Source: an uncultured Pelagibacteraceae bacterium
GTDB taxonomy: Bacteria > Pseudomonadota > Alphaproteobacteria > Pelagibacterales > Pelagibacteraceae
Direction of reading: 5' to 3'
NCBI GenBank assembly: GCA_902603625.1
Contig: CACKVM010000002.1
Location: forward strand, 1 to 64,000
Length of the DNA: 64,000 nucleotides
Shown: piece by piece, positions 2,833 to 8,175 of the stretch
Numbering within the stretch: position 1 is the stretch's first letter
How the letters are laid out: each line of letters begins with the position of its first letter
Notes under the pieces: generated by a model
Databases searched by the model: none
What the model saw: only the letters and a program-made list of their open reading frames with translations
What the model was told of the DNA's origin: nothing
Position numbers and translations under genes: made by a program

Positions 2833-3741
2833 ATGTCTCCTATCGAGGAAGTAATTTTAAACAAAAACGTTAATATAAATCCAATATGGATAATGAGACA
2901 AGCAGGTAGGTATTTACCTGAATTTAGAAAAATAAGGAAAGAAAACCCAGATTTTATTAAATTATGCCTTAACGAAAAGTTATCTACTGAGTTAACGCTA
3001 CAACCATTAATTAGGTATGATTTGGATGCAGCAATAATTTTTTCTGATATTTTAATGTTACCTTATGGATTAAATCAAAAAATAGAATTTATAAAAGGAA
3101 CTGGACCTATATTGGGCAACATAAATTTAGAAAATATTTCAAAATTAACTGAAAGTGATTTTATTAAAAAGGTAAATCCAGTTTATAAATTAATAAATTT
3201 GGTAAAAAATAATAAAATTACTAAAAACAAAACCACAATAGGATTTGTTGGAGCTCCATGGACCTTGTTAGTTTATATGTTAAATCAAGAATCACCTAAG
3301 AGTGGCTTAAAAAAAGATTTTTTTGGTGATGAAAATTTAATTAATAACATTTTAGCAATTATAGAAAGATTTTTAAAAATACATATCAAGCATCAAATAA
3401 ATAGTGGTGCACAGATCATTCAAATTTTTGATAGTTGGGCTGGTTTATTAGAAGAAAAAGATTTGCCAAATTATATTTACAAACCAACATCAAACTTAGC
3501 TGAGTATATTAAGTCCTTTAATGTTCCAGTTATATGTTTTCCAAGAAACATTAAAAACTACAAAGAATATTGTGATGTCGTTAATCCAAGTGTCATTTGT
3601 ATTGATTACAATACGGATCCAAAACAAATTTCCAGAAATATTAATATTCCTGTTCAAGGCGGGATGGATCCTAAAATCTTATTAACTGACAAGGAAAACT
3701 TAAAAAAAGAGGTAAATGAAAGAAATAGTATTAGATACTGA
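2833..3741 (+). CDS. hemE: Uroporphyrinogen decarboxylase, apparently truncated at C-terminus
   Basis: IWIMRQAGRYLPEFR, GFVGAPWTLLVYML, QIFDSWAG motifs; ends after QGGMDPKILL without the family C-terminal NLGHGI segment; overlaps dnaQ. Confidence 0.88.
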   Translation: MSPIEEVILNKNVNINPIWIMRQAGRYLPEFRKIRKENPDFIKLCLNEKLSTELTLQPLIRYDLDAAIIFSDILMLPYGLNQKIEFIKGTGPILGNINLENISKLTESDFIKKVNPVYKLINLVKNNKITKNKTTIGFVGAPWTLLVYMLNQESPKSGLKKDFFGDENLINNILAIIERFLKIHIKHQINSGAQIIQIFDSWAGLLEEKDLPNYIYKPTSNLAEYIKSFNVPVICFPRNIKNYKEYCDVVNPSVICIDYNTDPKQISRNINIPVQGGMDPKILLTDKENLKKEVNERNSIRY

Positions 3742-4381
3742 AACTACAGGCATTTCAGCAAAAGAAGGGCACAGAATAGTTGAAATTGGTTGTATTGAAT
3801 TAGAAAATTTAATACCAACTAAAAAAAAATTTCACAGTTATTTAAATCCAGAAAGAAAAGTCTCAGAAAAGGCTTTAGAAGTTCATGGTTACACAGATGA
3901 TTTTTTATCTAATCAAAAAAAATTTAAAGAAGTAGTAGATGACTTTTTAAATTTCATTGATGGAAAAAAATTGATAATACATAATGCTAATTTTGATCTA
4001 GAGTTTTTAAATAAAGAACTTAAATTATTAGGCAAAGGAAAGATTAATAATGAAATTGTTGACACACTTGTTTTAGCTCGCGATAAATTTCCAGGTGCTT
4101 CAATAAGTCTGGATGCATTATGTAAAAGATATAGAATTGATAATTCAAAGAGAGTAAATCATACTGCTCTTATCGACTGTGATTTATTAGCGAAAGTATA
4201 TATTAATTTAATTGATCAAAAAGAACCATCATTAAACTTTCAAGCACAAGATGAAAAATCTCAAATTTTAGATAGAGAGAGTTTATTATATTTCAAAAAA
4301 ATAATTAAGCCTACTCCTCAGGAACTTAAAAAACATGAAGATTTTTTAAAAATAAATTTAAAAAAAAATTTTTTTAATTAA
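3716..4381 (+). CDS. dnaQ: DNA polymerase III epsilon subunit
   Basis: VLDTETTGISAKEGHRIVEIG; HNANFDLEFLN exonuclease motifs. Confidence 0.93.
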   Translation: MKEIVLDTETTGISAKEGHRIVEIGCIELENLIPTKKKFHSYLNPERKVSEKALEVHGYTDDFLSNQKKFKEVVDDFLNFIDGKKLIIHNANFDLEFLNKELKLLGKGKINNEIVDTLVLARDKFPGASISLDALCKRYRIDNSKRVNHTALIDCDLLAKVYINLIDQKEPSLNFQAQDEKSQILDRESLLYFKKIIKPTPQELKKHEDFLKINLKKNFFN

Positions 4382-4799
4382 ATTTTTCGTTATACAATTT
4401 TGTAAAATCTATCTTTTTTTCCAGCTTAATTGATGGATGGCCAGAATTATGCATTAAATTTAAAAAAGCATTTTCTAATTCAGGATATATTTTATTAGGA
4501 ACATCACACAAGATTATTCTTTCCAAATCTTTCTTTTCTTTAATTTCTTCATTAATTCTTACTATTGATGCATAAACTATTTCGTAGTAGGATTTTTTTT
4601 CATTTGGTTCCTTATCCTCAAATTTCAAAGTAGTATTAATTTCAATTAATTTATTTTTTAAAGGCTTAGATGTGATGTCAATATTTAATTGATATTTTGA
4701 AATATTATCTTTAACAAATAAAAAAGTCTCTATATCGCGTGTTTCACTTGACATATCTTTAATATATTTTGCTAGGATTTTAAACTTTTCTGTCGTCAT
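4374..4799 (-). CDS. secB: SecB-like protein-export chaperone (divergent)
   Basis: C-terminal SGHPSIKLEKKIDFTKLY resembles SecB GGFPPLxLDPIDFxxLY; adjacent to dnaQ as in other alphaproteobacteria. Confidence 0.75.
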   Translation of the reverse strand: MTTEKFKILAKYIKDMSSETRDIETFLFVKDNISKYQLNIDITSKPLKNKLIEINTTLKFEDKEPNEKKSYYEIVYASIVRINEEIKEKKDLERIILCDVPNKIYPELENAFLNLMHNSGHPSIKLEKKIDFTKLYNEKFN

Positions 4800-7660: not shown

Positions 7661-8175
7661 TATATTTTTTCAACTTTGACATTTTCGTTTGTAAAAACAC
7701 AGATATCGGCTGCAACTTTTATAGCTTTCTTTGCAACTTCCTCTGCTGATATATTACTTTCCATTAAAACTTTCCCTGCAGCTAAAGCATAATTTCCACC
7801 AGAGCCAATGCCAATCACATCTCCTTCAGGTTCAAGAACATCACCAGTACCAGAAATTATATAACTATTTTTTTTATCACCAACTGCCATTAGTGCTTCT
7901 AATCTTCTTAAATATTTATCTGTTCTCCAGTCTTTAGCTAATTCAACAGCAGCCCTAGACAAGTTGCCAGCATGTTTTTCTAATTTTCCCTCTAATCTTT
8001 CAAACAATGTTAAGGCATCAGCTGTTGATCCAGCAAAACCAGCTACAACATCTCTCTTCTCAATTTTTCTGACCTTTGAGGCAGTACTTTTTACGACAGT
8101 GTTTCCCATACTCACTTGTCCGTCGCCAGCCACCACTACTTCATCGTTTTTTCTAACTAACACAATCGTTGTCAT
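7660..8175 (-). CDS. hslV: ATP-dependent protease peptidase subunit HslV
   Basis: [26 protein letters not shown]. Confidence 0.97.

Follow-up and report, generated by a model that had tools for sequence, protein, structure and literature searches.

An inverted hemE-dnaQ join beside a probable SAR11 replication origin is almost certainly an amplification chimera

Inverted joins in amplified DNA and the native SAR11 origin region

The closest described counterparts of the join reported here are the chimeras formed during multiple displacement amplification (MDA) of single cells. In a set of 475 chimeras obtained by MDA of single E. coli cells, inversions made up 85%, and 83% of these linked points lying less than 10 kb from each other; most of the chimeras featured 2-21 nt of complementarity, and a mechanism was proposed, in which a 3' end branch-migrates onto a nearby displaced strand (PMC1855051). 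In one workflow for single-cell genomes, assembly with SPAdes (single-cell mode) is followed by the removal of 100 bp at either contig end, and only contigs longer than 2000 bp are kept (PMC5519541); a benchmark of that workflow yielded 1.5 misassemblies per 100 kb (PMC11247762).

The native arrangement against which the present locus has to be read is found in its SAR11 relatives, where hemE (- strand) is followed by the oriC/intergenic region, by ppsR, maf, aroE, coaE and dnaQ (all + strand), and finally by secB and the next gene (both - strand). This order was read gene by gene in same-genus and same-order genomes wherever the contigs reach far enough, with some hits missing in the two same-order genomes. 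Every hemE match in 36 same-genus neighbours lies in an open frame of 333-358 aa, and an intact hemE C-terminus followed by hemH is present in all of the 80 relatives' loci that were fetched by name. Those of the 80 named loci that reach far enough share the native block, except for AG-901-C21 NODE_14, where maf itself is cut (~4563-4610) and meets a cytosine/purine-permease gene head-on beside TRAP-transporter genes, an arrangement that is probably a long-range chimera.

The junction and its flanking genes

The window, i.e. the whole stretch of 64,000 bases analysed here, comprises bases 1-64000 of contig C2 (85,312 bp), which starts inside coaE; window and contig share their left end, beyond which there is no sequence. 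The coaE fragment (3-368, - strand) comprises residues 1-122 of approximately 188 (TIGR00152, 2-123/188) and is cut by the contig end. The inverted block continues with aroE (365-1159, - strand; assigned by TIGR00507 and the gene order of relatives), maf (1156-1743, - strand; Maf-like NF002690 and TIGR00172) and a gene for a ppsR-type regulator (1733-2560, - strand; NF003742 above cut-off). The intergenic region between hemE and ppsR (2561-2832), native on both sides, is a probable replication origin, since the only two matches to the DnaA-box TTATNCACA in the 64-kb window, at 2645 and 2782, both fall inside it, and since the divergence of hemE and ppsR is conserved in relatives.

The open reading frame at 2833-3741 (+ strand) encodes HemE (uroporphyrinogen decarboxylase), yet its homology extends only to position ~3712, corresponding to residue ~294-296 of ~333. 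The 5' part of hemE (2833-3712, + strand; residues 1 to ~294) thus forms the left half of the join. The protein is a truncated HemE without a full-length TIGR01464 match over the curated cut-off: the model is matched from position 5 to 299 of 338 with 261.8 bits, under the cut-off of 302.95, and the Pfam URO-D match covers positions 6-307 of 346. In the closest relative found, AG-911-E04, HemE is 82% identical across residues 1-296 and goes on for about 39 C-terminal residues, which include the conserved NLGHG motif and are gone from the HemE of the window. The frame remains open until 3741 and overlaps the start of dnaQ; its last ~9 residues, VNERNSIRY, represent the coaE-stop/dnaQ sequence read out of frame.

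A column-by-column comparison with the hemE and coaE-dnaQ sequences of 60 relatives placed the switch between the two parents at 3712|3713: at T3713 the support for hemE falls to 0, and from this position onward the support for the coaE stop/dnaQ start climbs. The AA at 3714-3715 is compatible with both parents and suggests a microhomology of 2 bp, a value deduced from relatives, as the assembly lacks the native partners of this cell. The right half of the join (3713-4381, + strand) holds the coaE stop/dnaQ start and an intact dnaQ (3716-4381), which codes for DNA polymerase III epsilon (TIGR01406, 257.7 bits, above the cut-off of 222.7) and begins at the ATG that directly follows coaE in relatives. 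On a synteny map against a closed relative, which covers C2 up to ~11 kb and from ~69 kb, positions 3-3714 of contig C2 map onto the - strand and positions from 3716 onward onto the + strand. In relatives, the two joined points are natively spaced by 3905-3975 bp (median 3921).

The hemE|dnaQ arrangement occurs in none of the 80 named loci. When positions 3450-4150 were compared with 300 genomes of the genus, 271 of these gave matches, and among the matches listed only the window itself spans the junction, the remaining ones being separate pieces. A truncation conserved among relatives was accordingly rejected, being absent from the 36 same-genus neighbours, the 80 named loci and the matches listed for the 300 genomes.

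An earlier note on this DNA had proposed that hemE is truncated at its 3' end where dnaQ begins, and this is borne out by the end of hemE homology and the immediate onset of the coaE stop/dnaQ start. It had also described the NLGHGI-containing C-terminal segment as missing, and the HemE C-terminus is indeed present neither in the window nor in the whole assembly. The geometry that it had deduced, a block of hemE(N)-oriC-ppsR-maf-aroE-coaE flipped against dnaQ-secB, turned out to be exact when compared with the native order in relatives.

The missing arm and further joins in the assembly

The assembly comprises 788,680 bp in 48 contigs, the smallest of 2141 bp, and is 67.6% complete with 0.04% contamination; in the contig map 788,001 of the 788,680 bases were placed, and N stands for three stretches, in C1, C4 and C5. 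It looks like a single-amplified genome, and we infer an origin from one cell, because the nearest neighbours are AG-/AH- single-cell isolates (SAGs), and because of the assembly size, the low contamination and the contig cut-off.

The entire hemE side of the origin is without recovery in the assembly: the C-termini of HemE and CoaE as well as hemH, rho, trmE and mnmG were found nowhere in it, and in a positive control the same DNA query matched in 5/5 relatives. The missing C-terminal HemE fragment beyond coaE, or a second hemE, which the earlier note had suggested looking for, was sought across the assembly, and neither was found; hemE is present only once, and a second copy or a C-terminal fragment hidden elsewhere was rejected.

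Two other contigs carry joins of a similar kind. In C1 (160 kb), bases 1 to ~3288 are inverted versus the rest, which interrupts argB and creates its in-frame fusion with a VTT-domain gene (~3281-3307). C18 is inverted from ~8030 onward, and a ribF devoid of its first residues forms one reading frame with a DUF6134 gene (~8026-8037). The DNA joined in this manner is natively spaced by ~3 kb in C1 and ~6 kb in C18, and relatives with matches to both parts carry these separately and in the opposite relative (native) orientation. Both joins lie no more than 3.3 kb from contig ends, and together with the one in C2 all three are within 3.7 kb. The argB and ribF joins are likely to be further amplification chimeras. 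More synteny breaks versus the closed relative, which reflect either real rearrangements or chimeras, are present at the start of C11 and at C17 ~7030, C24 ~6900, C34 ~2020 and C36 ~1850; these were kept out of the evidence.

Origin of the join

We consider it highly probable (about 0.94) that 3712|3713 is an inverted chimera, which arose by phi29 multiple displacement amplification of one SAR11 (Pelagibacteraceae) cell and was retained by the assembler. The locus shows the inverted orientation, the spacing of less than ~10 kb and the private junction, unshared by relatives, which are expected of MDA chimeras. At the dnaQ start, branch migration would have displaced the 3' end of a growing strand that was copying secB-dnaQ toward coaE, and the freed 3' end would have re-annealed inside hemE on a nearby displaced strand, followed by extension back through hemE(N)-oriC-ppsR-maf-aroE-coaE; alternatively, the complementary event may have taken place. 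The chimeric product would next enter dnaQ again in the opposite orientation, thus forming an inverted repeat. Short-read assembly is bound to break off where an inverted chimera runs back, as an inverted repeat, into sequence that has been assembled before, and this repeat, together with the missing coverage of the hemE-C/hemH/rho/trmE/mnmG side, would have ended the contig within coaE. The start of C2 lies 197-206 bp short of the re-entry point, the native coaE/dnaQ boundary, and that of C1 lies 44 bp short of its own. At the rate of 1.5 misassemblies per 100 kb benchmarked for the single-cell workflow (PMC11247762), an assembly of 789 kb should contain about 12, and three such joins are therefore unremarkable. 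Points against an amplification chimera are an estimated junction microhomology of only 2 bp, the end of C2 ~200 bp before the predicted repeat rather than at the repeat, and the end of C18 ~3 kb ahead of its re-entry point.

The earlier note had preferred to read the site as a likely inversion breakpoint next to the origin and had named an assembly chimera as the alternative. A genuine inversion of ~3.9 kb that recently took place across the origin in this cell or its lineage and cut hemE would account for the sequence, in which hemE and dnaQ are cleanly joined by an inversion. Moreover, the second breakpoint would be expected just past the contig end, and therefore its absence is no counter-evidence; the reciprocal coaE|hemE-C junction was not found in the 67.6%-complete assembly, from which that whole arm is missing. 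Yet such an inversion would destroy the sole hemE found, which relatives keep at full length, its join is without a match in any other genome (among the matches listed for the 300 genus genomes), the same-genus relatives are uninverted, at least two more inverted joins that cut argB and ribF lie near contig ends of the same assembly, and an inversion gives no reason why the contig should end near the point of re-entry. A chimera is favoured over a rearrangement because the single hemE is broken and relatives harbour the gene at full length, because two like lesions are present in C1 and C18 and because the contig stops near re-entry; the preference of the earlier note is accordingly unsupported and its alternative gains the upper hand. 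We regard the inversion as very improbable, and it appears more improbable still that the single cell truly carried a fresh, origin-spanning inversion destroying hemE and was a dying or heme-scavenging SAR11 cell. If the inversion were true, it would represent a rare heme-synthesis-deficient SAR11 cell.

A pure assembler error, i.e. a mis-join during scaffolding or in the assembly graph that involves no chimeric DNA molecule, is less probable than either of these. In its favour, single-cell assemblies contain ~1.5 misassemblies per 100 kb (PMC11247762). However, the junction holds no long repeat to mislead an assembler, the shared sequence amounting to at most ~2 bases, and three inverted short-range joins of one type are better explained by chimeric molecules than by random mis-joins. 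Finally, the short HemE might be a natural, tolerated form, a possibility raised by the earlier note, and dnaQ might be translationally coupled to it; this reading could draw on the frame that stays open to 3741 and overlaps the dnaQ start. This is contradicted by the full-length hemE of the relatives examined, as seen in the 333-358 aa frames of the same-genus matches and in the C-terminus retained at 80/80 named loci, and the final residues are out-of-frame dnaQ; such a form is vanishingly unlikely.

The hemE|dnaQ join is thus almost certainly not a real chromosomal feature but an amplification chimera, and the actual chromosome of the cell most likely carries a full-length hemE in the ordinary gene order. 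The genes hemE, argB and ribF all look broken in this assembly, probably owing to inverted amplification chimeras. Where a single-amplified genome seems to have lost or fused genes or to break synteny close to a contig end, the cause can be an inverted amplification chimera, and this warning extends to GTDB species representatives.

Compared with the standard SAR11 origin region, hemH-hemE-oriC-ppsR-maf-aroE-coaE-dnaQ-secB, the window has the same genes on either side of the join, in the same order within each side, whereas the segment from hemE(N) to coaE runs in the opposite direction relative to dnaQ, HemE has lost ~39 residues at its C-terminus and coaE is interrupted by the start of the contig. 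AG-901-C21 NODE_14, part of a single-cell assembly of a relative, is similar in that maf, a gene of the same block, is likewise cut and fused, but its partner DNA stems from outside the immediate origin neighbourhood. Unlike the MDA chimeras documented by Lasken and Stockwell in 2007 (PMC1855051), the join in the window is known from an assembled contig rather than from raw reads, and its microhomology is an estimate from relatives. The window shares with these chimeras an inverted join of points less than 10 kb apart with probably tiny or no shared sequence, in a low-completeness assembly that resembles a single-cell amplified genome.
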